Origin: Pelagimonas phthalicica
Lineage (GTDB): Bacteria > Pseudomonadota > Alphaproteobacteria > Rhodobacterales > Rhodobacteraceae
Length of the DNA: 64,000 bases
Direction of reading: 5' to 3'
NCBI RefSeq assembly: GCF_004364805.1
Contig: NZ_SOAP01000005.1
Coordinates: 62,001 to 126,000, forward strand
Shown here one piece after another: positions 24,282 through 58,245 of the stretch. Below the pieces are notes generated by a model that saw only the letters and a list, made by a program, of their open reading frames with translations, was not told the DNA's origin and made no database searches. A program made the position numbers and the translations under genes. Every line of letters begins with the position of its first letter. Within the stretch, counting starts at the first letter, position 1.

Positions 24282-24283
24282 CC

Positions 24284-30653: not shown

Positions 30654-30667
30654 GAGGGATGCTCCGA

Positions 30668-33161: not shown

Positions 33162-33250
33162 CTTCAGACCCCTCGGACAAAATGTGTATACATTTGCCAT
33201 ATCCTGCCAACTTCATACAAGGCTGCCCCACCATACGATACTATACCAGT
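33162..33250 (+). other. Predicted oriT with T-DNA-border-like nic site
   Basis: TATCCTGC at 33200-33207 matches the YATCCTG/Y nic consensus of IncP/Ti-type relaxases, with cleavage expected between G33206 and C33207 on the + strand. On the other strand it reads TGGCAGGATAT, identical over 11 bases to the core of Ti T-DNA borders. Immediately left is the palindrome AAATGT-GTAT-ACATTT (33180-33195), a likely binding site for the accessory protein. The site adjoins the VirD2-type relaxase operon. Transfer would lead with sequence to the right of 33207. Confidence 0.72.
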
Positions 33251-33402
33251 CTGTCAATAATATACTTTCGTTGCTTCTGGTCTCGGCAGCCTTGTATTCC
33301 GCTTCACGCCGAGCACCAAAGGTGCGAGGCCCTGCCTCCCTCACCATCAAGAACCCCACCTGTCCAATGGGTCCCCTTCTCCAGCCCCGCCCGAGGGTCT
33401 GG

Positions 33403-33543
33403 CCGAACACGCATGTGTTCGGACGGAAACGCGGGCAGGCGCAAACCCCACCGACAGGGCGGACAGGCAGGGTCAAGGAGGGCCAGATTTGGCTTGGCCA
33501 AATCTCTGCCGCAAAAACCGCCAGGCCCGGCCTGGCGGTTTTT
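33403..33543. repeat. Cluster of three hairpins next to oriT
   Basis: CCGAACAC-GCAT-GTGTTCGG at 33403-33422; AGATTTGGC-TTG-GCCAAATCT at 33485-33505; and a pair of 15-bp perfect arms (AAAAACCGCCAGGCC and its complement, one base between) at 33513-33543. The last has A and T runs on its outer sides and can act as a bidirectional terminator. As single-stranded DNA the three would fold during transfer. No gene is seen in 33201-33728. Confidence 0.75.
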
Positions 33544-33728
33544 GGGGATGGCCCCCTTGAGGCTGGCTGGCTGCTCTGTCGCGATTCCTTTGATCTTGGC
33601 GGCGTTCGACCTTTGAGCGCGCAGCGACCGACACCTGGGGGTCGCCACCGGCAATCAACCCCGCCGGTGACGGCGTCCCTGGAACAGGGAAAGGGCCGCC
33701 TGATGGCGGCCCATCCTCGTCAGAGGAT

Positions 33729-33935
33729 TTAGTCGTGAGGTTCCTTCGAACTCGGCGGGAACATCACCAGCTCCGAAACCGCGACCGGGAAGTCGAGCTT
33801 GAGGCTGAAGAACTCCGAGCCGTCCCCGTTGCGGGTGTTGCGGAACATGGCGCCCACGCGTTGGAAGCGGGTGCGTTCCTGGCCGTCATTGTCGGTGAAT
33901 TTGACTGGGACGGTGGCGACGTAGTGGCTGGTCAT
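33729..33935 (-). CDS. Small conserved plasmid protein (DUF736-like region)
   Basis: A 68-residue soluble protein, MTSHYVATVPVKFTDNDGQE at its start, preceded by AAAAAGGAGAGACC, a very strong ribosome binding site. Beta-rich with GAMFRNTRNG and SLKLDFPVAVSELVMFP, loosely similar to half of a DUF736 domain; the assignment is tentative. It is the first gene right of oriT and so would be the first to enter a recipient. A decayed paralogue lies in inverted orientation at 34124-34284. Confidence 0.7.
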   Translation of the reverse strand: MTSHYVATVPVKFTDNDGQERTRFQRVGAMFRNTRNGDGSEFFSLKLDFPVAVSELVMFPPSSKEPHD

Positions 33936-34129
33936 TTGGGTCTCTCCTTTTTGCGATGGGGATCTCACAGCACGGGGGCAAGAGGCCCGGTCGCAAGCGC
34001 AAATGCGGAGGGTCCGCGCCAAAGGCGTGGAAGCCGTATTTGTGCTTGCCGAAGCGCAAGCGGAGGGCACGGCCGGACCGACCCCGTGCGATCCACATCA
34101 GTGAGCAAAAAGGAGATACCCAAATGACC
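33930..34129. repeat. 25-bp inverted repeat of a gene's ribosome binding site region
   Basis: 33930-33954 and 34105-34129 are inverted copies with one mismatch. Each holds GCAAAAAGGAGA plus CCCAAATGACC, i.e. ribosome binding site and start codon. The 150 bases between them are GC-rich with no gene. The repeat arises from an inverted duplication of the small gene at 33729-33935. Confidence 0.8.
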
Positions 34130-34284
34130 TCTGCCATCACGCAGTCGCTACTGGCTTTGTGCATGTCGAGATGACGTGCCCGGTTGCCTCGAACCGCCAC
34201 ATAGGGGGGCCATGTTCCGGATGGCCGCCGATCAGGAAGTGCCGTTCATCTGCCTCAAGTTTGACTTCCAGCTTCCGGCATGAA
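34124..34284 (+). pseudogene. Decayed inverted paralogue of the small gene at 33729-33935
   Basis: The ATG at 34124 keeps the same leader and first codons (MTS) as the gene at 33935. Its frame stops after 16 residues. Continuing in shifted frames, HAVATGFVHVEM and then AMFRM...LKFDFQLPA align with HYVATVPVKFT and GAMFR...LKLDFPVAV of the intact copy, ending at TGA 34282-34284. At least two frameshifts are needed. 34285-34464 shows nothing further. Confidence 0.55.
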
Positions 34285-34464
34285 TGCGTCGGGCTGACCG
34301 CCTGGCACGAGCCCCAAATCAATCCAACAAGGATTGGTCGCTGGCCGGCAATCCGAGACCAAGGGCTCGGGAACAAGGGACGGTGTTAGGCGGCGGTCAG
34401 ATCGAGCGTTCCATGAGAGGTCTGCTTGGGACACCAAGGACTGCAGCAGTCGTCGCCCTGACGA

Positions 34465-35481
34465 TCACGCGCCCAAGCTTTCGAGGATGGACTTCGTCTC
34501 CGGCATGCGCTTCAGCGAATTGTCGATGTGCGCGCGCCAGCGCGGGCCGACCTCTAGTGCGGTGGCATAAGCCTGGGCCAGATCATCAGGGCGGTCCTCG
34601 CCCATCGCTTCGATCAGAAAGGCTGCCTGTTCCCGGTCCTTGGCCGACTTGAGGCTGCCGGCCCCGTCGCGTCGCCGATCGGCGATGATCAGCTTGTGGA
34701 TCGCATAGCGCTCCGGGCGCGGCACCTGAACGAGAACTCCTGACCGATAGAGGGCAGCGGCAAAGATCGGTTCAGCGATCAGGAAGTTGAGGTAGTTGAG
34801 CGCCTGCGCGCCCACGCCGAGAGCGGGCAAATCTCGGATGGTCTCATTCCCGAAGGCAGGCGTCAGGAACTCGACCAACTGGCCGCTGCCCCCCTGCGCC
34901 CATCGCCATGTCCGGCCGTTGTCGAGCCCGGGCACGGGCGCGAACTTCAGTGCCGAAAAGGTCTCGGCCAAATCCGGATCGACCTGATCCTGCAAGGCGA
35001 CGCTGAGCTTCTCGAATTGCGCGATGTCGATATCGCCGGTGTTGGCCATGCCGCCCAGGGGCAGGCGGAGGCCAAGCTCGCCTTCATAAAGACGGAACGC
35101 ATTCGTCCCGACAATCGTACCGCCCAGCCGGAAGGTCCCGGCACCCGCCATTGCGGAGAGGATCGAGCCGGTCGCCCGGTCGGTCGGCGTCATGCCTTCG
35201 GCGCGCAAGAGTCGGACCAGCCGCGACCGCTCAGCCTGTCGGTCCTTGGCAGTCGCGCGCAGCTCCTCGATACGCTCGATGCGCGCGCGCGTCTCATCAC
35301 TGTTTTCGCCGATATAGATGAAGCGCATCTCGGTTCCGACACGGCGGGCCGCGTACCAGTAGGCCTTGTCGCCGCGCTCTTTGAGCGTTGGTTTGCCCTC
35401 CACACCGGATAGGGCGTCATCCTTCAGGAGCCGCACCAGATCGGTGTAGGCGCTCATCGCGATACTGCTAAGAGGGGTCAT
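34465..35481 (-). CDS. GSU2403-type nucleotidyltransferase-fold protein
   Basis: A 338-residue protein resembling the GSU2403 (NTP_transf_8) nucleotidyltransferase-fold family. Visible are GKPTLKERGDKAYWYAARRV, TGSILSAMAGAGTFRLGGTI (a GG-containing nucleotide-binding strand) and TGDIDIAQFEKLSVAL with the Asp-x-Asp pair. The C-terminal part has PERYAIHKLIIADRR. Function is unknown; the family is often plasmid-borne. ATG at 35481 is chosen with GGAAATGATAGG upstream; ATGs at 35490 and 35457 are alternatives. Leftward gene in the region that would enter first in conjugation. Confidence 0.7.
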   Translation of the reverse strand: MTPLSSIAMSAYTDLVRLLKDDALSGVEGKPTLKERGDKAYWYAARRVGTEMRFIYIGENSDETRARIERIEELRATAKDRQAERSRLVRLLRAEGMTPTDRATGSILSAMAGAGTFRLGGTIVGTNAFRLYEGELGLRLPLGGMANTGDIDIAQFEKLSVALQDQVDPDLAETFSALKFAPVPGLDNGRTWRWAQGGSGQLVEFLTPAFGNETIRDLPALGVGAQALNYLNFLIAEPIFAAALYRSGVLVQVPRPERYAIHKLIIADRRRDGAGSLKSAKDREQAAFLIEAMGEDRPDDLAQAYATALEVGPRWRAHIDNSLKRMPETKSILESLGA

Positions 35482-35726
35482 GCCTATCATTTCCAAATTT
35501 TGCTTGGCACACATATACCTATCAAAACAGGAAATTGCTAGGCAAGGCGAAAAACGGACTTCAGCGATGTGCACTCCACACCTCAAGATCACGCCAGAAC
35601 CGGGCACCAGGAAACGCAAAGGCCAGGCCCCCACTGACACGTCTCTTGATCAGCGTTGAGCGATGAAGAAGCGACACCACCCCTGAGAAAAGATGAAAGG
35701 GCCGCGCCACGCGCGACCCTCTCAAT

Positions 35727-36656
35727 TCAAGTCTCCGAAGTCTTCTTCGCCGGATCGGCGACCCGCATGACCGTCAGCCCTTTCGCTTCCGCCTTCTGGC
35801 CGAGGTTCAGCGCCACGCCATTGCCACCGAAAAGCACAACCCCCGTTGCCGCGAACTTGTCGTCCAGCATCTCGTCGTTGCACTTGAACGGTGCCGCCCG
35901 CCCATGTGCGGACCAGCGCGGATCGAAGCGCGCCTGCGCGACCCCGCGCGCCCGCGCCCAGCGGGCCGCGATCATCTCCGCCCCGTGCTTGCCACCCTTG
36001 TGGCAGAGGAAGATTTCCTGGTTGCGGTTCTGCCTGATCCGCTCGCGAACCTTGTCGAGCGTGTTGAAGATGACGTCGATATCGGTCCAGTCGGTCGCAC
36101 CCGAGACGATCAAGGGGACCCCCTCGACCTTCGACTTCGCGGCCGTCTCGCGATCATGCTGCTCCAGAAGCTGCCGGGCCTCGAAGACGGCCCCGGTCTC
36201 CTGCGCCCGACCACTGGCGCGTGACCCTGCCGCCGGGATGAAGGCATGGCCCGTCTCGATCTCGTAGCATTCCGCTGCTGCTTCGCTCATCACCTCGATG
36301 GCGCCTACGATCTCGCGCAGCTGCAGAAAGCGCGCCTGCGCCTCTTCGAGCGCCGTCTCGGCGATCTCCGATCCGTCGTGAGATTTTGCCAGCGCGCCGA
36401 TCTTGTCGGCTGTGCGATCGACCTCCTTGCCGAGCGTCACCTTGCGCCGTTGCAGGATCGTCGCGAACCCGTGGGCCAGCGGTTCGATTTCTGCCTCGAG
36501 TCCGGTCCCGCGCAATTGCCCGAGCAGGGTCTCGAAGGTTTCGCGGATGATGCTGTCCTTCAGGATGTGATCTTCCGGGATCGGCAGATGGGCGTCCTTC
36601 TCGGTCAGCCCGAAAAGCTCGATGGTCTCGTAGGTGTTCGCTTGATCGTAAGCCAT
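35727..36656 (-). CDS. DUF2493 domain protein
   Basis: A 309-residue protein starting MAYDQANTYETIELFG with GGAGAT eight bases upstream. The N-terminal two thirds are helical. The C-terminal domain (from about residue 185) is DUF2493: PLIVSGATDWTDIDVIFNTL, then IFLCHKGGKHGAEMIAARWA, DPRWSAHGRAAPFKCND and VLFGGNGVALNLGQKA. This domain belongs to the SLOG-like nucleotide-binding group. It is common on roseobacter plasmids; biochemical role unknown. A small hairpin (CCACCAC...GTGGTGG, 36683-36702) lies just upstream of its start. Confidence 0.75.
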   Translation of the reverse strand: MAYDQANTYETIELFGLTEKDAHLPIPEDHILKDSIIRETFETLLGQLRGTGLEAEIEPLAHGFATILQRRKVTLGKEVDRTADKIGALAKSHDGSEIAETALEEAQARFLQLREIVGAIEVMSEAAAECYEIETGHAFIPAAGSRASGRAQETGAVFEARQLLEQHDRETAAKSKVEGVPLIVSGATDWTDIDVIFNTLDKVRERIRQNRNQEIFLCHKGGKHGAEMIAARWARARGVAQARFDPRWSAHGRAAPFKCNDEMLDDKFAATGVVLFGGNGVALNLGQKAEAKGLTVMRVADPAKKTSET

Positions 36657-37247
36657 TTTGGTATCTCCAGATGTTTGACTGACCACCACGTGAGTGTGGT
36701 GGCATGGCCGAATGTCTGGTTTCCGAATCTGCTCGGGTCAGGGACGGCGCAGCCGCCGGCTTGCCGGGCGCAAAAGTTTTCCGAGCGCAGCACCCGACAC
36801 ATGCGCGCGCTCACGCACGGGTTCACCCCGCGCCACAGGCCCCGCCCTCGCCGAAAAGTTTTGCGATCCTTGAGGCGGGCTGATTTGGGGGCCATCCGGA
36901 GGATATGATTCCACGCTCATGTGTGTGTGTTTTGACGGTAGGTTTGCCCGACACGAGCAGGCAAACGGGGCGACCGGACGCGGAAGACGGATGAAGCGGC
37001 GGGATCGTTTTGCCAAGCAAAACAGACCAGAGCGCAATCCGGCGGAGCGGCCGGGGAGCAACGTGCTCGCGAGGCGGGCAAACCGGGATGCCGGGCGCTA
37101 CGCCGCGGTGAGGCCGCATGGCCGAATGCGCGACGGACCGAAGGGCCGTTCTCACCTGCGACACGCGAAGCCGAACAGGGGAGGCCGCAAGGCTAAACCA
37201 AAGAAAAACTTGGCAACAAGTTCCTTCAAGCAAGCCGAATAAACAAG
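36657..37247. other. GC-rich gap with repeats, no convincing gene
   Basis: This 590-base stretch separates the DUF2493 gene from the PIN gene. It contains the hairpin at 36683-36702 and two direct copies of GCATGGCCGAATG (36702-36714 and 37116-37128). An open frame at 36919-37242 encodes a low-complexity Arg/Gly/Pro-rich peptide and lacks a ribosome binding site, so it is not called. It may mark the left edge of the defence island. Confidence 0.5.
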
Positions 37248-37733
37248 TTAGTATCTCGCAAGGCGCCTATTGATTTCCCTGATAGGAAGTCTGCATCTTG
37301 GGTGATCACGAACCGCTTCGAGACCCGACATGAGGAGGGCGGTCGAACAAACCTCGTGACGTTCCATCTCATCGAAGACCCACAAGACGCCGTGCATCGC
37401 GATTTCTTGGCGCTCGGCCTCAGCCCTGAGCGCACCGTCTCCGGTAATGAGAACCCAATCCCTTCCAGCCGCCAGGCAAAATGCAAAGACATCTGGCGTC
37501 GATAACATAGCTTTCGCCCGCTTCAGCTCTGTCGCACGTGCGGTTTCTTCTGGCGTAAGCTCTTCCACTCTCAGTCCCAGATCGATCAGATCAGGGCCCA
37601 TCCAGTCGAGGAGTTCCGCTTCATAAAGAATATCTGGAACAACAAAATCATAGGGGAGGTCAAAGAGCCTCGCAGTCAGCGAGGCTCTCTCGATGTCGAT
37701 CAGGACGGAGGTATCAGAAACAAGAACTTGCAC
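37248..37733 (-). CDS. PIN-domain protein (toxin-like nuclease)
   Basis: A 161-residue PIN-fold protein. The four acidic residues of the metal site are in VSDTSVLIDIE (Asp7), YEAELLD, TPDVFAFCLA and ITGDGALR. Such proteins are usually RNases and toxins of toxin-antitoxin pairs. It lies seven bases downstream of an XRE-ImmA/IrrE fusion on the same strand, a pairing known for XRE-COG2856 type antitoxins. It may be the toxin of that pair, or an accessory of the divergent CBASS. The C-terminal 30 residues are basic. Confidence 0.8.
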   Translation of the reverse strand: MQVLVSDTSVLIDIERASLTARLFDLPYDFVVPDILYEAELLDWMGPDLIDLGLRVEELTPEETARATELKRAKAMLSTPDVFAFCLAAGRDWVLITGDGALRAEAERQEIAMHGVLWVFDEMERHEVCSTALLMSGLEAVRDHPRCRLPIREINRRLARY

Positions 37734-37740
37734 ATGGGCA

Positions 37741-38802
37741 CTATGCCATGTGGTCCAAACGTTCTTCCAGTTCTTTTACTCGTATTTCGAGAAGCTCAGC
37801 TGCGCGAGACAACCCAATCAACCCCTCGGAGAGGGCACGAAAACACAACCTCTGAAAGCGGTCCGGTTCTTCTCGCTCCCACGGAATGGAATTTGGCTCC
37901 TCGAACGGCTCATCCCGCCAACCACGTTGCTTATAGACCTTGAACAGGCGCGCAAAGGTTGCCTGGTTGATAATCTCCAAATCCTTGCATCGATACGTCA
38001 GCGCTTGAATGCTGACGCCAAACCGATCCTTCAGACTAATGAGCTCACCAATGCTTATGTCCGTTCTGCGGGCACCAATCTCCTGCCGTAGCACTTCTGC
38101 CGGAACGAGGAATGCACCAGCAAATCGATTTGCGGCGCGTTCTGAATCGCACCCTTCGGCGACTTTAAGAACCATGTGGCCCAATTCGTGGGCTAAACTG
38201 AAGCGCTTCCGCTCAGACCAGGTCTTCTTCTTGATCATGATAACACGGGCGGAGTGATGCTCTTTTCGACGCACTTTCGCCGCAAGTCCGTCAATCCGAT
38301 CGACATCCAAAGATAGCACTTTGATCCCGTGCTCCTCGAGGAGTTCGGCAAGCATTGGAATCGGGTCATGACCCAGCTGCCAAGAAGCACGCATGTTGCG
38401 AGCCGCGTCCTCGGCATCACGAACATCGGCCACCCAATAGGGTGCTTCGTGCGGGGCATCCCATTCCTGGCTCGAAAGATTCAGCAAGCTTTCGATAGCT
38501 AGGTACTTTTCTACCATATTGAGCGTCTTGGCTTCGATCGTCGCGATCTCTTTGGCTGACGAGCTGGCTGACTTGCGAAACTCAACGCCCTCCAACTCAA
38601 GCTCATCATCGCTGAGCAGGAAATCCACAGAGACGCCGAGTGCTCGGGCAAGACTCAGCAGCACGCCCGATCCAGGCATGTCTTCATTGCGCTCGTACTT
38701 GCCTATGGCTTGAGCGGACACCTTGTTCTCCATGGCATCGGAAAGTGCACGTAGCGAGAGGCCAGATGCCGCCCGGGCTCCTTTGAGTCTCTTGCCAATC
38801 AT
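37741..38802 (-). CDS. XRE / ImmA-IrrE metallopeptidase fusion regulator
   Basis: A 353-residue protein with an N-terminal helix-turn-helix (residues 1-65; GKRLKGARAASGLSLRALSD, SAQAIGKYERNEDMPGSGVL). A zinc-peptidase domain follows, with HELGH in SLAHELGHMVLKVAEG near residue 200. It probably binds DNA as a repressor and can be inactivated by its protease domain. In some CBASS systems separate CapH (helix-turn-helix) and CapP (ImmA-like protease) genes control expression after DNA damage; here the two functions would be on one chain. It is divergent from the CBASS operon across a 181-base region with repeated TGTAAAC motifs. The strong ribosome binding site GGGAGGA supports the start. Confidence 0.88.
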   Translation of the reverse strand: MIGKRLKGARAASGLSLRALSDAMENKVSAQAIGKYERNEDMPGSGVLLSLARALGVSVDFLLSDDELELEGVEFRKSASSSAKEIATIEAKTLNMVEKYLAIESLLNLSSQEWDAPHEAPYWVADVRDAEDAARNMRASWQLGHDPIPMLAELLEEHGIKVLSLDVDRIDGLAAKVRRKEHHSARVIMIKKKTWSERKRFSLAHELGHMVLKVAEGCDSERAANRFAGAFLVPAEVLRQEIGARRTDISIGELISLKDRFGVSIQALTYRCKDLEIINQATFARLFKVYKQRGWRDEPFEEPNSIPWEREEPDRFQRLCFRALSEGLIGLSRAAELLEIRVKELEERLDHMA

Positions 38803-38983
38803 AACGTCCTCCCAGTGGGTGGTTTACATTTCACCCATATGATTGATATTTTGTAAACTACAACGCTTGAAAGCGCGGCAGATTGTCCCTAAGTTGTAAC
38901 ACGAGGCCAAAACGAAGGCAAATTTGTAAACCGCCAAGTCGCCCCAAGAGGCGCTGAACAGGCAAAGAACCGAGGAAGCAGCC
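38803..38983. promoter_or_regulatory. Divergent CBASS/regulator promoter region with repeated TGTAAAC motifs
   Basis: GGTTTACA at 38821-38828 (reverse orientation), TGTAAACT at 38852-38859 and TGTAAACC at 38925-38932 share one core, with a weaker TGTAAC at 38895-38900. The first two form an inverted pair. A candidate rightward promoter is TTGAAA at 38867-38872, 17 bases, then TAAGTT at 38890-38895, overlapped by the weak copy. The layout suits control of both sides by the XRE-ImmA protein. Confidence 0.55.
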
Positions 38984-39889
38984 ATGAACGCACCGTTTGC
39001 GGGCGACCTGCCGAAAGGAATTCAGAAGATTACGGCACTGCCGGACCCCGGCCTGGCAGAACTCTGGGACTCAATCATCGTCGAAGCCGAGATGAAGGAG
39101 CGCCTGCTCTCTCAGGCGGTGCTAAATTTCACAATGCGACCAAAGATGAGCCGAGCCGTGTTGCCGCTCCATGGCGTCCTTCTCCTGGTTGGCGCACCCG
39201 GGACGGGCAAGACTTCGCTCGCGCGAGGGTTGGCCAACCGAACAGCGGCGGCTTTCAAGGGTGGAAGCTTTCAACTGGTTGAGGTGGAAGCGCATGGATT
39301 GACGAGTTCCGCCATGGGGAAAACGCAACGGGCGGTTTCTGACCTTTTTGCGCAGACCCTCTCAGAACTTGCTAATGCAGGTCCGACGATTGTGCTGCTG
39401 GATGAGGTGGAAACACTTGCGGTCGACCGGTCTAGGCTCAGCCTTGATGCCAACCCTGTTGACATTCATCGAGCCACGGACGCCGTACTGGTACAGCTCG
39501 ACCTGCTGGCAGAATCTCACAAAAACCTGCTATTTGTGGCGACCAGTAACTACCCGGAAGCCGTGGACGATGCCTTCGTTTCCCGATGCGATCTGGTACT
39601 TGAAGTACCTCTTCCAGGGAAAGAAGCCTGCAAGACGATTTTGCGGGAGTGTCTCTTGGGGCTTGGCAGCACCTATCCTGAGATTGAAGAGCTGACCAAG
39701 GACCATGGCTTCGATACATGCGCCGGCGAATTCGTCGGTCTTGACGGAAGGGCGATCCGAAAAACGGTTGCGAACGCGCTCGCCTCGAACACTCAGGTGG
39801 CACTGAACCCCGGCTCGGTAACACTGTCTCAGTTGGTAAAAGCCGCGAAATCAGCCCAAATCAACAAAAAAGCAAATCGGGGGAAGTGA
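38984..39889 (+). CDS. cap6: TRIP13/Pch2-like AAA+ ATPase of type III CBASS (Cap6)
   Basis: A 301-residue AAA+ ATPase: Walker A GAPGTGKTS at about residues 70-78, Walker B IVLLDEVE near 136-143, a sensor/arginine region ATSNYPEAVDDAFVSRCD, and a C-terminal small domain ending in basic residues. In type III CBASS this protein remodels the HORMA sensor away from the CD-NTase, keeping signalling off until infection. It is first in a five-gene rightward operon with overlapping genes. The start has GAGGAAGCAGCC upstream. Order here (TRIP13 first) differs from systems where the CD-NTase comes first. Confidence 0.92.
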   Translation: MNAPFAGDLPKGIQKITALPDPGLAELWDSIIVEAEMKERLLSQAVLNFTMRPKMSRAVLPLHGVLLLVGAPGTGKTSLARGLANRTAAAFKGGSFQLVEVEAHGLTSSAMGKTQRAVSDLFAQTLSELANAGPTIVLLDEVETLAVDRSRLSLDANPVDIHRATDAVLVQLDLLAESHKNLLFVATSNYPEAVDDAFVSRCDLVLEVPLPGKEACKTILRECLLGLGSTYPEIEELTKDHGFDTCAGEFVGLDGRAIRKTVANALASNTQVALNPGSVTLSQLVKAAKSAQINKKANRGK

Positions 39890-40359
39890 TGGCAACTGTA
39901 ACCCGCAGAACATTCCGGAGCTCACCGCATCGCGACGCCGTGGCCACATGGGCGACCATCAGCGACTTGCTCACCCGGACAAATACCGGCGCGCAACAGG
40001 AACTCGGCATTGTCGCTGGCATTGCAAGCAGCGTTATCGCGGACAAAGCCTGCGAAAACTCACCAATCATTGTCAGCTGTGAGGGACCGCAAACGCGCAT
40101 CTACTGCATTTACGACGACGATGCGATCGATGGGTCGGATGCAAACGAAGACGTGCTCGGGTTTGACCCACTGAATGGTGATTGGTCGATTTCACTGCCA
40201 TGTGAACCCGATGATCTCGGTTGGGTCCAATCTGCCCTACAACAAAAGAGCAACCGCATCACTGCACGCGACAAAACCGAAACCAAAAAGCAAGACACAG
40301 CGAACAGTTCGCAAGGTGCAGCGCTTGAAATTGATCTCGAGGGGCTATTGAAGCCATGA
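39889..40359 (+). CDS. cap8: Second HORMA-type protein of type III CBASS (Cap8/HORMA3-like)
   Basis: A 156-residue protein starting at ATG 39889, overlapping the cap6 stop (TGATG), with GGGGGA upstream. Its sequence ([49 protein letters not shown]) resembles the HORMA3 protein of the Pseudomonas CBASS with two HORMA genes. HORMA3 has a divergent fold and lacks a clear closure motif. Its exact role is not settled. The assignment rests on sequence resemblance recalled from that family and on operon position. Confidence 0.8.
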
Positions 40360-40859
40360 CATCGGTCATCACATATTCCCGCACCCAGTCCGTTACCTAT
40401 GTGGCAGACAACATCCTCAAAAGCCTCAAAGACATTATTCGTCTGAGCGGCATGGACCCGACGAACTTCGTGAATGACACGGAAATCAATATGCGGGGTA
40501 TCAAGGCGTGGCTGGAGAGCGAAGACCTCGAGAAAATCACCCTGGATATCTACAATCCGACAACCGACAGCCTGATCCTGCGTTGGGACATAGACGTGAC
40601 CTACAGTTGGTCTGCTGGAGATGGAAACTTCTGGACGGACACTGACCAACTTCGTTGGGCAATCCGCAAAGCCGGCGTGGCGCCAGCAAGCGCCAAGTAT
40701 GACCTCCTTCTACGTACAAAGCCTGGACGACCTGATGTCCCGGGCTGGTATCGAACCACTGCCCGTTCAACCGACGGCATGGTTCGCCAAAGCCTTGGAT
40801 CTACCATCGAGCACAATGGGCTGGGTGCGACGGCCTCGTATTGGAGACAAGCATCATGA
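40356..40859 (+). CDS. cap7: HORMA-domain sensor of type III CBASS (Cap7/HORMA2-like)
   Basis: A 167-residue bacterial HORMA protein. The N-terminal [20 protein letters not shown], central [20 protein letters not shown] and C-terminal safety-belt part ([12 protein letters not shown]...GATASYWRQ) match the HORMA2 type. HORMA proteins are thought to bind a closure-motif peptide, then bind and activate the CD-NTase; the TRIP13 ATPase reverses this. It overlaps both neighbours by ATGA, showing tight coupling of sensor and synthase. Confidence 0.88.
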
Positions 40860-41755
40860 TTTCACTCCCGGACGCATTCAAGAAGTTCAAGAGCCGAATG
40901 GAGTTGAACGAAAGAGAGCAGCAGAACGCATCCAAGCGGCAGAAGGAAGTTCGCGAGCACCTGGATAAAGCCTTTCAGATTGACCGAAGCTTTTTGACAG
41001 GAAGCTACGCCCGCTGGACCAAGTCCAAACCACTCAAAGATGTCGATATCTTCTTCGTTCTTGGAAAGGACGAGGACCACTATCGAGAGAAACACCCTGA
41101 CAAGATACTGACCGCGTTCTACGATACGTTGGTTGACGTTTATGGAAGCAGCGCCGTCAAAAAACAGGGACGCTCCGTGGGGGTGGACTTTGGGGTCGTC
41201 GTCGATACAGGCCACAACACAGATTACCGGGTTGTAAGCGTGGATGCCGTGCCCGCATTCGCAAAGGGAGACGACTACGAAATCCCAAACAACACGACCG
41301 GGAAGTGGATGGGCACAAACCCCGAAATTCATGCACAGAAGGCTGTTGCGGCCCATCAAGCCTATGGCAATGAGTGGAAGGGCCTGGTGCGCATGGTGAA
41401 GTACTGGAACCAAAACAGCCGCCATGGAGAAAAACCAATCAAGCCATCCTTTCTGATCGAGGTCATGGCGATGGAGTGTCTACATGGTGGATGGGGCGGC
41501 TCACACGATCGCGAAATCCAAGCGTTCTTCGCTACGCTGCGCGACCGAATTCACGAGGATTGGCCAGATCCGGCCGGTTTGGGTTCTCCTGTCAGTGACC
41601 GAATGGACGCGTCCATGGTGCAGCGAGCGCAGGCTATTCTGGATCAGGCAAATCGCGACATCGCTGCCGCAATCCACTTAGCGCGCCAGGGCAAGAACGG
41701 AGACGCCCTGAAAGCGTGGCGCGCTTTCTTCGGACCAAAATTTCCGCTGTCTTAG
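40856..41755 (+). CDS. cdnD: CBASS CD-NTase (cyclic oligonucleotide synthase)
   Basis: A 299-residue cGAS/DncV-like nucleotidyltransferase from ATG 40856 (GGAG upstream). The active site is GSYAR (Gly49-Ser50), KDVDIFFV (Asp62, Asp64) and VSVDAVPA (Asp130). A C-terminal helical domain follows ([17 protein letters not shown]...). Together with NucC and HORMA/TRIP13 partners it most likely makes a cyclic trinucleotide (cAAA) on infection. The clade (CdnD rather than CdnC) is inferred from the two-HORMA partner set. The longer frame from a TTG at 40841 is rejected. Confidence 0.92.
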
Positions 41756-41767
41756 AAGGAAAAAACA

Positions 41768-42490
41768 ATGGCTGAATGGTCGCTATCACAACTTCTATCG
41801 TCGTTGCACGAGGATATTCAGCATCGGCTGTCGACAGCGCGAAAGTCGTTCAAGCATCCTGTTGCGAAAGGGGATGCCAGCGAAGCCATATGGATGGGCA
41901 TGCTCGCCCAGTACCTGCCCGAAAGGTATCAGGTCGCAAGCGCACACGTGGTGGACAGCCAGGGAAACTTCAGCGACCAGATTGATGCCGTGGTCTTTGA
42001 CCGCCAGTATTCGCCATTCATCTTCACGTACGAAGAACAACTCATCGTTCCAGCTGAGAGCGTCTATGCAGTATTCGAGGCAAAGCAGACGGCAGATGCC
42101 GGTCTTGTGAAGTATGCCCAAGACAAGGTCGCATCTGTCCGAAACCTGCATCGGACCAGCTTACCAATCCCGCATGCTGGCGGGGTCTACCCACCAAAAC
42201 AACTCATTCCCATCATTGGCGGGCTTCTGACATTCGAGAGCGAGTGGAAACCTCCCTTGGGTGCATCGTTCGAAAGGGTCCTAAACGAAGGCGAAGATGA
42301 TAGACGGTTGGACATCGGGTGTGTTGCCTCCCACGGGCATTTTGTGTTCGACGAAGACAAGGGTTACGACCTGGTTGAGGGTGCGAAACCGGCAACTGCC
42401 TTCTTGTTCGCGTTGATCTCGCACCTCCAGTTCAGCGGCACTGTGCCGATGATCGATATCGACGCCTATGGAGATTGGCTGACCAAATAG
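41768..42490 (+). CDS. nucC: NucC, cyclic-nucleotide-activated DNA endonuclease effector
   Basis: A 240-residue protein of the NucC (DUF6602) family, the same length as the known enzyme. The restriction-endonuclease core shows Glu39 (GDASEAIW), Asp73 (DQIDAVVFD), and Glu104-x-Lys106 (AVFEAKQT), the residue numbering of E. coli NucC. IPHAGG and a C-terminal FSGTVPMIDIDAYGDWL are also family features. On binding cyclic tri-AMP, NucC trimers join into hexamers and destroy the chromosome, causing abortive infection. It ends the CBASS operon; 42491-42627 after it shows no clear terminator. Confidence 0.93.
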   Translation: MAEWSLSQLLSSLHEDIQHRLSTARKSFKHPVAKGDASEAIWMGMLAQYLPERYQVASAHVVDSQGNFSDQIDAVVFDRQYSPFIFTYEEQLIVPAESVYAVFEAKQTADAGLVKYAQDKVASVRNLHRTSLPIPHAGGVYPPKQLIPIIGGLLTFESEWKPPLGASFERVLNEGEDDRRLDIGCVASHGHFVFDEDKGYDLVEGAKPATAFLFALISHLQFSGTVPMIDIDAYGDWLTK

Positions 42491-42627
42491 TTGCCGCAAA
42501 GGTCCGCTAACGTGTGCCGCATCGCTGTTGCCTGCATATCCCCGGCGATTTGCGATTTTGACCCAATTCCCTCGCCAGCTGAATCAACTCACGAATTACC
42601 AAAACGGGGAGCCGGTTTATCGTGATC

Positions 42628-43044
42628 TTACACGGTGTTGCTAGGCCGCAGGGGCATGGTTTCTCGCTCGGGGCGCTTCAAGGCTTCGGCAAGTTTGCGA
42701 GCATTGTCGTCAATCGTGCCGTGCCAGAGCTTCGAGACAAACGCCCGGGCGTCTTGCACCTTCATGTCGTTCAGCGAAGAGGACAGCGCCATGAAGATCG
42801 TGTCCTGCAGGTCGGTCAGATAAGCACGCCGCGATGTGGACACCGGCTTGCCCGCCGCCTTGGCCTCTCTGTATGCCAGCCTTGTCGTCTCGAGCTTCGA
42901 CTTGGCAAAAGACATGATAACATCGCGCTTTCGGGCGGGTAGCGCGAATTCGGTCCAGCGCTCGATATGGGCGGTGAGGATCTCAACCTCGGCCGCGACA
43001 TCAAAGTTGTCAAACCATGGAACCGTCCCTGATCTCGCCGCCAC
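42628..43044 (-). CDS. Hypothetical helical protein
   Basis: A 138-residue, mostly helical, charged protein with no recognised domain (EVEILTAHIERWTEFALPAR, KSKLETTRLAYREAKAAGKP). The likely start is GTG at 43044; no clear ribosome binding site is visible, so the first residues are uncertain. It is the leftmost gene of the long leftward block and converges on the CBASS operon. Confidence 0.55.
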   Translation of the reverse strand: MAARSGTVPWFDNFDVAAEVEILTAHIERWTEFALPARKRDVIMSFAKSKLETTRLAYREAKAAGKPVSTSRRAYLTDLQDTIFMALSSSLNDMKVQDARAFVSKLWHGTIDDNARKLAEALKRPERETMPLRPSNTV

Positions 43045-43198
43045 GCGCCCGCCCCGATACTACGTTAATATATTATTGTATAACCATCGCACCAGATTGC
43101 AAGCGGGTGGGCTCCTTCACGCAAACGGACATGGAAAAAGGGAAACCGTGATCCCACGGCTCCCCTTGCTACTCGAATGTTCAAGCCTCGTAATATGA

Positions 43199-43927
43199 TC
43201 AGGCGACCAGCGACAGCCCCGCGCCTGCATCCTGCGGCTGCTCACCACCGTCGATGAACGGGATGATCGAGAAGGTCTTGCCGCCGCGCTGTTCCTCGTT
43301 CTGCACGGCGTTGACGCGCAGGTCGCCATCGGGCGTGTTGATCAACAGCGACAGGTAGTCATTGCCCGTGCGGCTGCTCTTGGCCATCCAAGCAGACCCG
43401 ACGCGGATCGGATTGCCGCGAGGCGAGCTGACCTCGATCCGGTAGTCGGGATGGGTGTCCTCGGACTTGTAGTCGTTCTCGATCAGCATGAACTCCAGAT
43501 CGAACATCATGTTGGCAATGTAGCCGGTGAAGGCGTTGTCGGCGTCCATGGCGGTCAACTCGCCCGAAATCGAGCCGGATTTCATGATGCCGTTCGAGAC
43601 CAGCGGGATGATCTCGAATTCGCCGCTCTGGGCCGCGCGCGCCTCTTTCGTCTGCACCGCGTTGACCCGGAACGGGCCGAGGCCGACATCGATCTGCATC
43701 GAGATGTAGGGGTTGCCGCTTGTATTGCCGGTCTCGTTCCATGCGGTTCCGATGCGCACCTTGCGGCCAGACTTGTTGACCGCGGTCACGTCGTAATCCG
43801 GGCTGCGCTCGGACATCTTCGGGCGGGTTTCAAGCTGGATGGCAATGTCGAAACGTGTCGAATGGATCATGCCGGAGTATTGGGCGGCTGCGGTTTCAGT
43901 GTTGCGGGTCAAGGTTCCTGCGAACAT
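43199..43927 (-). CDS. Tandem DUF736 protein
   Basis: A 242-residue protein containing two DUF736 copies. Copy one: SPDYDVTAVNKSGRKVRIGT and ISMQIDVGLGPFRVNAVQ. Copy two: HPDYRIEVSSPRGNPIRVGS and LSLLINTPDGDLRVNAVQ. Each copy pairs a beta hairpin with a G(S/T)AW motif and ends in NAVQ. The ATG at 43927 has AAGGAACC upstream. DUF736 proteins are frequent on alphaproteobacterial plasmids and phages; function unknown, possibly nucleic-acid binding. Here the usual single domain has been duplicated and fused. Confidence 0.78.
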   Translation of the reverse strand: MFAGTLTRNTETAAAQYSGMIHSTRFDIAIQLETRPKMSERSPDYDVTAVNKSGRKVRIGTAWNETGNTSGNPYISMQIDVGLGPFRVNAVQTKEARAAQSGEFEIIPLVSNGIMKSGSISGELTAMDADNAFTGYIANMMFDLEFMLIENDYKSEDTHPDYRIEVSSPRGNPIRVGSAWMAKSSRTGNDYLSLLINTPDGDLRVNAVQNEEQRGGKTFSIIPFIDGGEQPQDAGAGLSLVA

Positions 43928-44051
43928 GGGATGGTTCCTTCTGATATGTCCGGTGCCTGACGTCCTTGCCAGCGCATCCGGGATTGCTTTTTCGACCCCT
44001 CCTGGGATCACAAACCAGAAAGCTCGCTTTCCTTTCTTCCCAACCTTCAGT

Positions 44052-44357
44052 TCAGCGCTGGCGCCTGAGAGACTGTGCCACCTCCCCGCCGGGTACGACG
44101 CCCCTCCCCTGCCCGTCTGGTCTCAGTTGGCTGTCCTGGCTCTTCTCGTCGCCACTCTCCGGTCCAGCGATAAAGAACTCTGCTTCCTCCCCGTTCAACC
44201 GCTGCCCGCTCCGGTCGGTCAGCCCGATGGTGCTGCCGTTCGGCTCAAACGTAATCAGGTACTGGCCGAATCTGTCCTTGTCCACGCGGTAGCCGGTGTT
44301 GGCCCAATGTACGGTCTGACCTGCATCGATGGCGGCTTTGATCTCTTCGAGTGTCAT
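44052..44357 (-). CDS. Small hypothetical protein downstream of the helicase
   Basis: A 101-residue protein starting MTLEEIKAAIDAGQTVHWAN with GAGGGGACG upstream, 14 bases after the helicase stop. The first 70 residues form a compact domain (GYRVDKDRFGQYLITFEPNG, IGLTDRSGQRLNGEEAEFF); the tail is low complexity. The family is not recognised. It is clearly co-transcribed with the helicase. Confidence 0.65.
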   Translation of the reverse strand: MTLEEIKAAIDAGQTVHWANTGYRVDKDRFGQYLITFEPNGSTIGLTDRSGQRLNGEEAEFFIAGPESGDEKSQDSQLRPDGQGRGVVPGGEVAQSLRRQR

Positions 44358-44371
44358 GATCGTCCCCTCGC

Positions 44372-47300
44372 CTATTCTGCTGCCACTGAAGTTACGTCCC
44401 GCGTGGCGTCTGGTCCGGTTCCAACAATCCGGGCAAGAATGCCCAATGTGTCGACACCGTCCCCATGTGGCAGAAACACGCGCAGCTGGAAGGCGATGAT
44501 CTCCGTGAAACACCCCATGGCCTTGAGGCCATCGATCATTCCCTTGTCCGCACCGCCCAGCTCGAGGCGCACCTCGCCCGCGACACGGCGGCGGGTCAGG
44601 GTCAGGCCGCGGCCCAGATCGACCTGGGCAGTGGTGCCTAGGGCGGCGGTCAGCATTTCTTCTGGGGTTTGTGGGTTGGAAACGAGGAAGCGCCCGCGCA
44701 ATGCAGCCGCGCCCTCTTCGCTCAGCGTGCGGCCGATCATGCTGGTTCCGCCGTCGGGCGTGACCCGGTAGATGCGCTCATTGGTGGTCGGGATGTCCTT
44801 CCAGATCGGCAAGAGCAGCCCGGTCAGCAGGTAGAGCTTCGTCGTGGTGGTTTTTGGAAGGGACGCTGCCTCGGTATCCCAAAGCCCTGCAAACTCGGGC
44901 CTTCCGATATCTTCCCAGGCCGAGGACTCGAACCGCGCCTCTTCGAGATAGCTCGACCCGTTTGGCCGCACCGCCTTGCGCATGAGGGTGACGAGATCCT
45001 CGTCATACATCTGCATGGGCCGCGCCGAGATGAGCGCCGCGCGGCCGGACGCGCGGTTGACCATCGTGGTCTTATCCGGATTGCGCGACATGGCCTCTTC
45101 GGCGTTGAGGACGTGAACCGGGTCGGTCACCTCAAGCCCGATGATCCGCGTCACGGCGCCGGATTTCGGGCAGGTCCAGAGGTCTTCGGTGGAGACCTGC
45201 TCGATCTTGTCGCCACGCAGGGTTTCCACACCGAGATCGAGCGTGCCCGCCGCGCGCGCCCGTTCGGTCTGATCGGCGATCCGGCGCATGAACTCGGCAA
45301 AGAGTGCGTTCTGCATGTGGATGGGCAGGGCCAGAACCCGGTTCAGAAAACGCTGGATCGGGGGAAGCTCTTCCAGCAGAAAGCCGTCCTTGTCGGTCAG
45401 CCGCAAGGCTGTCCAGTCGGTGAAGCTCTCGTAGCTCATCGCGGCGGCGTGTCCGGCGGCAAGATCTGCATAGTAGCCGCGCAGCGCCGCTCGCGCGATC
45501 GGGCTTTCGAGATTGTCCTCCTCGCGAAACATGCCCTGCGAGCCGGTTTCCCGCTGACCCTTGGTGAGCGCGCCTAACTGGTCGAGCCGTTTGCTGATCG
45601 TCGAGGTGAAACGCTTCTCGCCATGCACATCGGAGGTGCAAACGCGAAAGAAGGGCGCGCTGACCTGAGCCGAGCGATGCGTGCGGCCCAGCCCCTGGAT
45701 GGCCCCATCGGCGCGCCAGCCGGGCTCCAGCAGGTAGTGCCGCCGCCGTTTCTGGTTCTTCGCCGTTTGCGCCGCATGATAGGATCGGCCCGTCCCGCCC
45801 GCATCGGAAAAGATCAGGATATCCTTCTCGCCGTCCATAAAGGCTTGGGTCTCCGACGAATTGCTACTGGCGGAGCGCTTCTCGATGAAGAGATGGCCAT
45901 CCTCGGCCTTGAGGGGCCGGATGGACCGCCCCGTGACTTCAGCGACGGTCTCGTCGCCAAAGGCCCAGAGGATCTGATCGAGCGCCGAGGGGATCGGGGC
46001 GAGCGTCATCAACTCCATCATTGCCGCATCGCGCAGGGCGAGCGCCTCGCGCGAGACGACCAGCGCGCCGGTCTCGTCGCGCAAGGGTTCCACGACCATG
46101 TTGCCGTCAATCTCCACGAGCTTTTGCGCGTGGATCGGGAAGGCTTGTTCGAGATAACCCAGCACGTAGTCGCGAGGCGTCAGGGCACCCTCAACGAGTT
46201 CATCCTCCGGATCCATGGTCTCAAGTCGCCGCTTCAACAGGCTCTCACCCGTCGAGACCACCTGGATGACGCAAGCCTTGCCTGCCGACAGATCTTCCTC
46301 GATGGCGCGGATGATGGTCGGGGCCTTCATGCCCATCAGGAGATGATTGAAGAACCGTTGTTTCGTGCTCTCGAAGCGGGACTTGGCCGAGGCGCGTGCG
46401 GCGGAGGCATTGGTCTCGCCGGAAGCGTCATTGACGCCGGTGGCAGTCAGGGCTGCCTCGAGATTGTGGTGGATCATGCGAAACGCACCCGCATAGGCGT
46501 CGTAGATCTCGGTTTGGGCCGGGGTCAGTGCATGTTCCAGCACGTCATATTCCACCCCATCAAAGCTGAGCGCGCGGGCCGTGTAGAGCCCGAGTGTCTT
46601 GAGGTCGCGCGCGACCACCTCCATGGCAGCGACGCCGCCTGCCTCCATCGCCGAGACAAAGCTCTCGCGGCTTGGGAAGGGGTATTCGGTACCCTGACCC
46701 CAGAGCCCCAGCCGCGCGGCATAGGCCAGGTTGTGTACGCTGGTGGCACCCGTGGCCGAGACATAGAAGACGCGGGCGCGGGGGGCGGCAAGTTGCAACC
46801 GCAGCCCGGCGAGGCCCTGCTGGGAGGGTTTGACCCCCCTGCCCTGCTCGGACCCGGCCGCGTTCTGCATGGCATGGGCTTCGTCGAAAGCCAGAACACC
46901 ATCGAACCCCGCGCCCATCCAGTCGAGGACCTGGCTCAGCCGCGAGGTGCCGCATTTGCCCGCCGAACGCAGCGTGGCGTAGGTGACGAAGAGGATGCCG
47001 TCGCCCATGGGGATTGGCTGATCCGGTTTCCATTTCGACAGCGGCTGAATGTCGGCGGGCGAGCCGCCAAGATCGGTCCAGTCGCGGATCGCGTCCTCGA
47101 TGAGCGTGGCGGATTTGGAGACCCAGATCGCCTTCCTGCGCCCGGCAAGCCAGTTCACGAGGATGAGCCCCGCGCATTCCCGTCCCTTGCCACAGCCGGT
47201 GCCGTCACCGAGGAAATAGCCGAGACGATAGGTATTGGCGTCCAGGTCATCATCGGCGCGCGTCAGCTTTGTCTGGTCGTCATCGATGGTAAAACGCCCC

Positions 47301-48646
47301 GGCAAGTCGCGCCCATGGGCATCATTGGCCATGATGATGGTCTCAAGCTGCGCCTCGGAGAGGTGTCCCTCTTCGATCAGTCGGGCGGGCAGCCGCAATG
47401 CCTCGCTCGCCTCACGCGATGGCGCTGGCGGCGCGACGGAGGCCATTGCGATACTTTCGACCAACGGCGTGGGATGTTCCCGAGCGCCCGCGATCTCGAT
47501 CCGCTGCGGGCGGTAGCGGGCATAGATGTCCGAGACCGGCGTGTTGTCCCGTGGAGTCTCGAGACTGGTGAAGGTAAGCGGAACGGCGGTGTTGGTTTTG
47601 GTCTTGGATGCAGCGACTGCTGCAACAGGCCGCTTGCGCGTGACAGGCACTGGAACGACCCTCCCCGCGTGAGGGCTCGTCGCCGCCCTTTGGGCGAGAC
47701 GCGCCTCGGGCCGGTTCGCAACCACGGCGTCGACATATGCCGAGGCCTCATCCAGATCCCGCACCGTGGCGCGGATGAACTCACCACCCTCCGGCACCTT
47801 GTCGAAGACCATCAGCTGGGTTTCCACACTCGTGCCAAGCTTACGATAAACCTGTCCCGGGATCGTCAGCGCCAAGCGCGGCGTGAAGAGGCCGCATGCG
47901 CGCGACCATTGCGCGGCATCACGCTTGGCGCTGAACCCCGGCGGCATGATCGCCACCAGCCGTCCGCCGGGCGCGAGGCGCTTCGCAGCCGCGACGAGAT
48001 GCTTGGCCGCGATGTGCTTGTCCCTTGAGCGATCGACCGAAGAGGCAAAGGGCGGGTTCATGGCCACGACATCGGGCAGGACCGGTGTCTGCAGCAGATC
48101 GTCGATATGCTCACCATCGTGACCCGTCACGTCGCCCCCGAAGACGGCCCGCAGCAGGCGCTGGCGAAAGGGATCGATCTCGTTGAGCAGAAGCTTGGCA
48201 CCGGCGCGGGTGGCGAAAGCGGCCAGGGCGCCAGTTCCGGCGGATGGCTCCAGCACGGTCTCGCCCTTGCGGACCGCAGCCGCCCGCACGGCCAGAGACG
48301 CGAATGGCAACGGCGTGGAGAATTGCTGCAATCGGATCTGCTGCTCTGACCGGCGGGTTTCCGTCAGGAGTCGCGAGGCGAGCAGCTTTGCAGCGGCAAT
48401 ACCACCCTCGGCGCCGTCTCGACGCAGCAGCACCTGAACAGCCGCAGCCTGCATCATGTCATAGGCCATGCGCCAGTCCCACGCGCCACTGGCATCGCTG
48501 CCGCCGAACGCCTCCCGCATGATATGGGCAAGCGCCGAACTGCGCAGGGGCTGGTGATCAATCTCCGCTCCCACCTGCCTCAGAGCGGTGGAAAGATCGG
48601 GATCGGAGACGTTAAGAACTGGGTTTGTTGGGGTTGGCTTGGCCAT
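44372..48646 (-). CDS. Strawberry-notch-type methylase-helicase fusion (DarB-like)
   Basis: A 1424-residue protein. The N-terminal part is an adenine-methyltransferase-like domain (LEPSAGTGA near residue 132; AMNPPFASS near 194, the NPPF catalytic motif). From about residue 430 comes a strawberry-notch helicase: GDGTGCGKGRE (Walker A, about 480), AFDEAHAMQN (DEAH, about 588), and GLGRTHRSAQ (motif VI). This architecture is like phage P1 DarB and related polyvalent proteins that protect incoming DNA from restriction. ATG at 48646 is chosen over longer starts in the leader. An 801-residue antisense frame inside it is a shadow. Confidence 0.88.
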   Translation of the reverse strand: MAKPTPTNPVLNVSDPDLSTALRQVGAEIDHQPLRSSALAHIMREAFGGSDASGAWDWRMAYDMMQAAAVQVLLRRDGAEGGIAAAKLLASRLLTETRRSEQQIRLQQFSTPLPFASLAVRAAAVRKGETVLEPSAGTGALAAFATRAGAKLLLNEIDPFRQRLLRAVFGGDVTGHDGEHIDDLLQTPVLPDVVAMNPPFASSVDRSRDKHIAAKHLVAAAKRLAPGGRLVAIMPPGFSAKRDAAQWSRACGLFTPRLALTIPGQVYRKLGTSVETQLMVFDKVPEGGEFIRATVRDLDEASAYVDAVVANRPEARLAQRAATSPHAGRVVPVPVTRKRPVAAVAASKTKTNTAVPLTFTSLETPRDNTPVSDIYARYRPQRIEIAGAREHPTPLVESIAMASVAPPAPSREASEALRLPARLIEEGHLSEAQLETIIMANDAHGRDLPGRFTIDDDQTKLTRADDDLDANTYRLGYFLGDGTGCGKGRECAGLILVNWLAGRRKAIWVSKSATLIEDAIRDWTDLGGSPADIQPLSKWKPDQPIPMGDGILFVTYATLRSAGKCGTSRLSQVLDWMGAGFDGVLAFDEAHAMQNAAGSEQGRGVKPSQQGLAGLRLQLAAPRARVFYVSATGATSVHNLAYAARLGLWGQGTEYPFPSRESFVSAMEAGGVAAMEVVARDLKTLGLYTARALSFDGVEYDVLEHALTPAQTEIYDAYAGAFRMIHHNLEAALTATGVNDASGETNASAARASAKSRFESTKQRFFNHLLMGMKAPTIIRAIEEDLSAGKACVIQVVSTGESLLKRRLETMDPEDELVEGALTPRDYVLGYLEQAFPIHAQKLVEIDGNMVVEPLRDETGALVVSREALALRDAAMMELMTLAPIPSALDQILWAFGDETVAEVTGRSIRPLKAEDGHLFIEKRSASSNSSETQAFMDGEKDILIFSDAGGTGRSYHAAQTAKNQKRRRHYLLEPGWRADGAIQGLGRTHRSAQVSAPFFRVCTSDVHGEKRFTSTISKRLDQLGALTKGQRETGSQGMFREEDNLESPIARAALRGYYADLAAGHAAAMSYESFTDWTALRLTDKDGFLLEELPPIQRFLNRVLALPIHMQNALFAEFMRRIADQTERARAAGTLDLGVETLRGDKIEQVSTEDLWTCPKSGAVTRIIGLEVTDPVHVLNAEEAMSRNPDKTTMVNRASGRAALISARPMQMYDEDLVTLMRKAVRPNGSSYLEEARFESSAWEDIGRPEFAGLWDTEAASLPKTTTTKLYLLTGLLLPIWKDIPTTNERIYRVTPDGGTSMIGRTLSEEGAAALRGRFLVSNPQTPEEMLTAALGTTAQVDLGRGLTLTRRRVAGEVRLELGGADKGMIDGLKAMGCFTEIIAFQLRVFLPHGDGVDTLGILARIVGTGPDATRDVTSVAAE

Positions 48647-48768
48647 GGGGTTTGTCCTTTGGATCAGGGTCTGAGTTCCAAAAGACAAAAAGCCCCCTCT
48701 ACACTTTGTAAGAGCAGAGAGGTCTCGAAGGAAGCGCCGGTGCTTGATGGTCCAGTCGTTCAATCCTC

Positions 48769-55557: not shown

Positions 55558-55572
55558 ATTTTGCGCATTCCT

Positions 55573-55607
55573 TGCGGATATTATACCGCATAATCTCGTC
55601 AAGACAA
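55573..55607 (-). promoter_or_regulatory. Promoter and operator-like palindrome of the fic gene
   Basis: On the minus strand TTGTCT (55607-55602), 16 bases, then a perfect TATAAT (55585-55580), 22 bases before the fic ATG. The -10 sits inside an inverted repeat TGCGG-N8-CCGCA (55573-55590), so a repressor bound there would block RNA polymerase. The Fic protein's own winged-helix domain is a candidate. Confidence 0.6.
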
Positions 55608-58243: not shown

Positions 58244-58245
58244 GA

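Follow-up and report, generated by a model that had tools for sequence, protein, structure and literature searches.

The stretch of DNA analysed here, 64,000 nucleotides of a Pelagimonas phthalicica contig (NZ_SOAP01000005.1, positions 62,001 to 126,000), will be referred to as the window, and all coordinates are counted from its first nucleotide. Between 38984 and 42490 it carries what, judged by sequence comparison, is an intact type III cyclic oligonucleotide-based anti-phage signaling system (CBASS) consisting of TRIP13, HORMA1, HORMA2, CdnD and NucC, a known type of system. The uncommon part of the locus is a divergent gene pair upstream of it, encoding a fused XRE-M78 protein and a PIN-domain protein. 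The genes and intergenic elements are as follows (values are E-values).

37248-37733, minus strand: 161-aa protein with a PIN domain, putatively the toxin paired with the fused repressor (PF01850 0.0017 when searched alone; D7, E40, D81 and D99 conserved)
37741-38802, minus strand: fused XRE-type helix-turn-helix (HTH) and IrrE/ImmA-type (M78) metalloprotease, 353 aa, putative repressor-antitoxin (PF06114 2e-20; HTH_3 8e-11; PADLOC RmrA 2.7e-52, capP 8.3e-19, capH 3.4e-6)
38822-38858, no strand: candidate operator GTTTACA-N23-TGTAAAC between the divergent genes (a single match in the window; none in 100 shuffles)
38867-38895, plus strand: candidate CBASS promoter TTGAAA-N17-TAAGTT, 8 bp past the operator, read from the sequence
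38925-38931, no strand: third half-site (TGTAAAC), within the leader of the CBASS operon
38984-39889, plus strand: TRIP13-like AAA+ ATPase (PADLOC TRIP13 1.3e-143; Pachytene checkpoint protein 2 PDB chain 1.7e-25)
39889-40359, plus strand: HORMA1 (PADLOC HORMA 6.5e-72; PDB 6p8p 4.1e-54)
40356-40859, plus strand: HORMA2 (PADLOC HORMA 1.8e-85; bacHORMA_2 PF18173 1.3e-83; PDB 6p8s/6p8u 1.5e-71)
40856-41755, plus strand: CdnD-like CD-NTase (PADLOC cyclase 2.4e-143; NF041117 above cut-off; PDB 6p8u 7.2e-137)
41768-42490, plus strand: NucC effector nuclease (PADLOC 8.9e-110; PDB 6q1h 1.6e-116)

The CBASS Operon

An initial annotation, made from the sequence letters, had proposed a five-gene type III CBASS with two HORMA genes and NucC at this position, and the open reading frames (ORFs) together with the PADLOC, Pfam and PDB matches confirmed it. 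The five genes are adjacent or overlapping. HORMA1 was taken to start at the ATG at 39889 and CdnD at the ATG at 40856, the mechanically called ORFs opening at GTG 39886 and TTG 40841, respectively. The assignment of 39889-40859 to HORMA, which had been left to hidden Markov model searches, was obtained for both genes with PADLOC and for the second also with bacHORMA_2; HORMA1 (39889-40356) matched no Pfam family despite its PADLOC and 6p8p matches.

As proposed, the active-site residues are intact at the positions that had been named. Read from the sequence, CdnD carries G49, S50, D62, D64 and D130, NucC carries D73, E104 and K106, and the TRIP13-like protein has a Walker A motif (residue 70) and the Walker-B-like IVLLDE (residue 136). 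In the alignments, both D62 and D64 are replaced by N in 6p8j_C, a solved relative of CdnD, and D73 likewise in 6p7p and 6q1h, solved relatives of NucC, which fits a catalytic role for these residues. A NucC lacking the pocket residues for cyclic tri-AMP (cA3) had been named as an argument against the annotation; R53, Y81, H136 and Y141, which we take to line this pocket, are all present. Residue 226 is V by the protein's own numbering, and T225 faces T226 after a one-residue alignment gap. The locus therefore has the components of a type III CBASS, namely a cyclase with its catalytic residues, HORMA proteins with TRIP13, and a NucC effector with its active site.

Compared with the solved two-HORMA/CdnD/NucC system (6p8p/6p8s/6p8u), four of the five window families match solved members and the catalytic residues are intact. 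The gene order had been considered notable, which was not borne out, since the same order was found in all eight more distant two-HORMA/NucC loci examined (L009-L011, L014-L017 and L075). It is also seen in L018, where a SAVED-domain protein replaces NucC; in the one-HORMA loci L042 and L166 the cyclase comes first. On this comparison the order in the window is ordinary for two-HORMA loci. The cyclase has matches in 890 plasmid records, 881 of them at less than 60% identity. What sets the window apart from the solved system is its controller, a fused XRE-M78 protein with PIN rather than CapH+CapP or CapW.

Limits of the Mobile Unit

The operon had been described as complete. This holds for the CBASS genes, but it misses the divergent pair at 37248-38802, which moves with the operon. 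Three loci (L001, L002 and L012) share 37249-42508 with the window at 89.4% identity and nothing else within 34001-46000; they represent one other plasmid lineage, as their identity to one another around the unit is 95.6-100%. Since this lineage shares only 37249-42508, the transferable piece includes the divergent PIN and XRE-M78 genes. L003-L007 and L013 match the window from 35681 to ~42500, and in five of these six the backbone match restarts at 43119, the exception being L005. The GC content of the PIN, XRE and CBASS genes is 0.54-0.55 compared to 0.625 for 30000-37000 and 0.632 for 43000-50000. From the locus comparisons, 37248 to ~42508 appears to be one mobile seven-gene unit made up of the CBASS and the XRE-M78/PIN pair. 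Among 11 genome contigs with the cyclase, eight (L001-L008) carry the pair; in L011 only the protease is matched, at 27% identity, and L009 and L010 have no match to the pair.

The Fused Regulator

The XRE-M78 protein carries an aromatic residue followed by arginine ([FWY]75-R76), HEXXH at 205-209 and E221. Used alone in phmmer it found no solved relative at 0.001; a profile of 28 homologues found some, the HTH part matching ImmR 7t8i, DdrO 6rnz and 7t5u, the last of which we take to be CapH, and the protease part matching IrrE 3dte and CapP 7t5t. The alignment behind these comparisons (A1) kept 28 of 30 non-redundant rows, L027 and L028 being excluded. A structure model (pLDDT 90.5, pTM 0.88) was closest in PDB to CapP 7t5t, the sole match to reach E <= 0.001 (9e-4), followed by the HTH domains of the P22 C2 repressor and ImmR. 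Across 45 sequences with a mean column identity of 33%, no variation was seen at R76, H205, E206, H209 or E221. In a 30-member set, the aromatic-R at 75-76 was found in all 29 homologues with residues there, and H205 was R in two. The ratio of nonsynonymous to synonymous substitution rates (dN/dS) was 0.02-0.03 in six comparisons.

The protein resembles three described kinds of regulator. Like CapH+CapP it combines an HTH repressor with an IrrE-type protease and lies divergent beside an immune operon, as in Thauera sp. K11 (L166), the source of the solved CapP 7t5t; unlike CapH+CapP it is a single 353-aa ORF instead of two genes, has a PIN partner and scores higher against RmrA than against capP. 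CapH+CapP control adjacent immune operons, according to PMC13373217. VapB52, an antitoxin of the IrrE type that is paired with a PIN toxin, is reported in PMC13273310 to cleave itself on single-stranded DNA (ssDNA), probably at a conserved FR motif; likewise, the window protein has an aromatic-R motif between its N-terminal domain and the peptidase, plus HEXXH. The domain order of VapBC52 differs, and the passages on it mention no attached immune operon.

The third resemblance gives rise to a rival explanation, in which the XRE-M78/PIN pair is an autonomous RosmerTA-like toxin-antitoxin that controls only itself and stabilises the CBASS by addiction, its adjacency reflecting clustering in defence islands. 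As in RosmerTA, the window holds an HTH-ImmA protein beside a putative toxin gene, that of PIN. The RmrA match also favours this explanation, whereas the CapP-type protease of the Polaromonas locus L017 scores capP (2.6e-68) far above RmrA (9.2e-14). ImmA-type antitoxins adjoining toxins, with PIN-like domains among the partners, have been reported for RosmerTA / NetFlax D25 (PMC10440598). The window pair differs from these in standing head-to-head with CBASS and, in relatives, with ubiquitin-like operons.

The PIN Protein

Of 28 aligned PIN members, 25 matched PF01850 at 0.01, and the acidic residues were conserved (D7 in 29/29, E40 in 28/29, D81 and D99 in 27/29 each); L063 was excluded from the alignment due to an internal stop. 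Matches to PDB were weak, the best being a VapC at E 0.054. A single-sequence fold (pLDDT 34) was not used, and the PIN call rests on the Pfam counts and the conserved residues. Across the compared genes dN/dS was 0.02-0.12 (seven genes in three relatives; PIN and XRE in three more), and the unit is therefore under purifying selection. Short or duplicate loci were skipped in this work, in the tree, in the PIN residue alignment and in the operator count.

Alternatively, the fused protein might simply be CapH joined to CapP, repressing CBASS but playing no part in a toxin system, and PIN a passenger or an extra effector. The matches to the capP and capH models and to the CapP structure agree with this, as do the shortening of PIN to 39 residues in L067 and its split into two pieces in seven Bradyrhizobium records. 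Against it, of the 48 plasmid records that encode the fused protein 46 also match the PIN query (these seven included, and one match covering 38 residues only), the catalytic residues of PIN are conserved, and its dN/dS was 0.05-0.09 in six comparisons. We consider this explanation improbable. The truncation in L067, where the XRE and CBASS proteins are complete, argues against an autonomous toxin-antitoxin.

The Intergenic Operator

The exact operator pair (spacer 10-30) was found in 26 of 47 loci, many of which are close relatives, compared to a shuffled mean of 0.01 and maximum of 1. Once the XRE proteins were thinned to less than 80% identity, it was present in 7 of 16 loci (spacer 15-30). 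Homologues above ~47% identity keep the operator across cargo types. In 20/47 loci the third half-site was present, at +122 to +133 counted from the start of XRE; when the search was relaxed, matches within the window alone were no more than chance would give. The proposed promoter TTGAAA-N17-TAAGTT was not listed by a promoter scan. In the intergenic regions of the CapH/CapP-type loci L014, L016 and L017 the GTTTACA/TGTAAAC pair was missing from all three.

These elements bear on the autonomous toxin-antitoxin. Against a pair that regulates only itself stand its head-to-head placement and the intergenic operator, both retained across CBASS types, together with one half-site 8 bp from the candidate −35 of the cargo and a third in the cargo leader. 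The operator is nevertheless present in L045, which has no CBASS, as that explanation would have it.

Cargo in the Divergent Slot

The slot was surveyed in 394 genomes of the family, in which XRE-M78 at E <= 1e-30 gave 21 places in 18 genomes. Eighteen of these places were assessed; G227, G102:C324 and G102:C273 were left out (contig edge or poor match). Nine contained CBASS, namely type III with NucC (2), type III with Cap17 (1), patatin (5) and DUF2235/cyclase (1), three contained ubiquitin-like operons (multiubiquitin/E2/ThiF or ThiF), and six had neither. The DUF2188 gene, elsewhere the first cargo gene, was retained in three of these six; L052 has DUF2188 plus a 53-residue patatin fragment. 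Absence of cargo was judged from ORF lists and tblastn with ~20 cargo proteins. A sample of the class (385 genomes) added four places, one with ThiF, one with DUF2188 only and two without a match.

Among the 48 plasmid records with an XRE-M78 protein, 22 were opened. CBASS genes were detected in 14, including L072, whose cyclase has no full-length open frame. The others comprised one ubiquitin-like operon, one DUF2188 only, five with neither, and one cyclase fragment adjoining an IS3 element (L069); in L081, one of the five, type I-U cas genes lie divergent, ~1.3 kb off. The sample sets partly overlap (G034 and L076 agree in length and position and have identical proteins). Altogether, the pair adjoins at least five CBASS arrangements, with the SLATT-type cyclases confirmed by PADLOC, as well as ubiquitin-like operons.

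Exchange of cargo is most evident in a clade at 93-100% XRE identity, where four different operons occupy the slot: type III NucC CBASS (the window and others), patatin-cyclase (L040, L067), cyclase-SLATT-DUF2235 (L066, L068) and DUF2235-cyclase-SLATT (L041). L040 is 99% identical to the window in XRE and 96% in PIN and has the same DUF736 and strawberry-notch backbone genes, with a patatin-cyclase cargo. This cargo is ~92% identical in DNA to that of L080/L085 over ~2.7 kb, ending ~15 bp before the patatin ATG; the XRE proteins of L080 and L085 are 41% identical to that of the window. In L040 and L067 patatin is preceded by an ORF of 35 codons that resembles the N terminus of TRIP13 (scores of 67 and 68 compared to shuffled maxima of 34 and 37), which we read as a probable relic of a replaced type III operon. 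L001 and L012 have a DUF2235 gene after NucC with ~78% DNA identity to that of L066. On a tree of 44 XRE-M78 proteins, whose long branches leave deep joins unsure, seven cargo labels need 13 changes (minimum 6; shuffled mean 27.5), and cargo is therefore clustered but exchanged.

The same slot also speaks to the autonomous toxin-antitoxin. In the Agrobacterium, Rhizobium and Polaromonas loci (L014, L016, L017) and in Thauera sp. K11 (L166) it is occupied by known controllers, separate HTH and ImmA/IrrE genes of the CapH/CapP kind, which argues against a bystander role. On the other side, the pair is found without CBASS in viral contigs and elsewhere, for example in L082 and L083, where restriction genes follow it. 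Weighing all points, we regard an autonomous toxin-antitoxin as rather unlikely, though less so than CapH joined to CapP.

Several further observations concern the pair and its surroundings. In L082 and L083 (Shewanella and Sulfuricurvum plasmids) the pair is directly upstream of type I restriction genes. DUF2188 heads the cargo in CapH/CapP-type type III and in fused-regulator patatin loci and stands alone in some slots (examples are L014:4697-4933, L051:9694-9930 and L079:5664-5888). In the strain Pseudosulfitobacter sp. DSM 107133 a pair is present on each of two plasmids (NZ_CP085161 and NZ_CP085159), the XRE proteins being 98% and 41% identical to that of the window. In viral contigs, an alignment-based scan yielded 80 loci and a single-sequence scan none; PIN was matched in seven of the eight closest homologues (L086-L092, L099).

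Plasmid Context

The conjugative-plasmid location given by the initial annotation was supported by the following genes.

16866-19304: VirB4
24278-25708: TrbI
28758-30653: VirD4
30668-32626: relaxase
52685-53617: ArdC (anti-restriction)
55703-57064: RepC
57272-59427: RepB and RepA

By its gene content the window looks as a conjugative RepABC plasmid would. Anti-restriction genes had been placed next to the operon; among the window ORFs scanned only ArdC was found, ~10 kb off. An NTP_transf_8 nucleotidyltransferase (34465-35640, PF12281 8.3e-69) lies near the defence unit, and the same plasmid encodes a Fic-domain protein (54463-55698, DUF4172 + Fic) and a strawberry-notch-like helicase of 1463 aa (44372-48763), a backbone gene common to related plasmids.

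Discussion

Sequence comparison shows the gene identities, the unit boundaries, the exchange of cargo, the conservation of catalytic and FR residues and, in part of the family, that of the operator. We propose, with a probability of roughly 0.6, that CBASS and the XRE-M78/PIN pair form a mobile seven-gene unit in which an exchangeable, ssDNA-cleaved repressor-antitoxin controls both PIN and CBASS. XRE-M78 would bind the GTTTACA half-sites between the divergent promoters, repress the CBASS as well as its own gene, and neutralise the PIN protein. ssDNA arising from phage replication or DNA damage would trigger self-cleavage at the aromatic-R76, between HTH and protease, by which CBASS would be de-repressed and PIN freed. 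HORMA1 and HORMA2 together with TRIP13 would then gate the cyclase, whose cyclic oligonucleotide product is presumably cA3 by homology, and NucC would cut DNA as the killing arm. The control pair itself would be exchangeable, other CBASS types and ubiquitin-like operons filling the same slot in relatives. Repression, the ssDNA trigger, self-cleavage, PIN toxicity and phage protection are what we infer in this scheme.

Several observations weigh against this proposal. Six of the 18 assessed family loci have neither CBASS nor a ubiquitin-like operon, and none of the eight closest viral-contig homologues matches the queried CBASS proteins, so that the pair stands alone there. The window PIN by itself falls under the Pfam cut-off, and PIN, which is cut short in L067 and split in the Bradyrhizobium records, is dispensable at least there. 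The operator pair occurs in just 1 of 18 loci below 47% XRE identity and in none of seven low-identity patatin CBASS loci; if there is repression in that branch, it must act through a different site. The XRE-M78 model superimposes on CapP with a TM-score of 0.26-0.32 and a root-mean-square deviation of 12.8, and the link is therefore domain-wise and not one of whole shape. Finally, the window protein has C218 at +9 past HEXXH, the Cys-switch position of CapP and VapB52, but Cys is found here in just 2 of 30 homologues. A Cys switch as a general trait of the family was thus rejected, another difference from CapH+CapP, and activation may differ.

CapK+CapS and VapKSC offer a further parallel. 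PMC13373217 describes them as controllers of immune operons that respond to ssDNA and have relatives in control of a VapC toxin; they use kinase/STAS chemistry, and in the passages on them the toxin and the immune operon belong to separate systems. Among the paper titles and abstract openings searched, none concerned a fused HTH-IrrE/PIN pair as CBASS controller, although the CapH/CapP paper may mention fused forms. CBASS itself is known in kind; the seven genes as a unit, with a repressor-toxin pair as their proposed exchangeable controller, are a variant not described before among these. That one ssDNA-cleaved repressor-antitoxin couples the PIN toxin to CBASS in a two-stage abortive response, and serves as a portable controller behind which type I and type III CBASS as well as ubiquitin-like operons are swapped, is a tentative extension to which we give slightly less than an even chance.

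The unit ties together three ideas that had been described apart: the cleavage of IrrE-type repressors, toxin-antitoxin pairs with PIN, and the control of CBASS. As nearly one regulator is found with different cargo, and one cargo with different regulators, control can be tested apart from the effector. The XRE-M78/PIN pair may represent a shared DNA-damage switch of several immune operons, and the arrangement suggests how plasmids could safely swap lethal immune operons, with the incoming operon landing behind an existing repressor.

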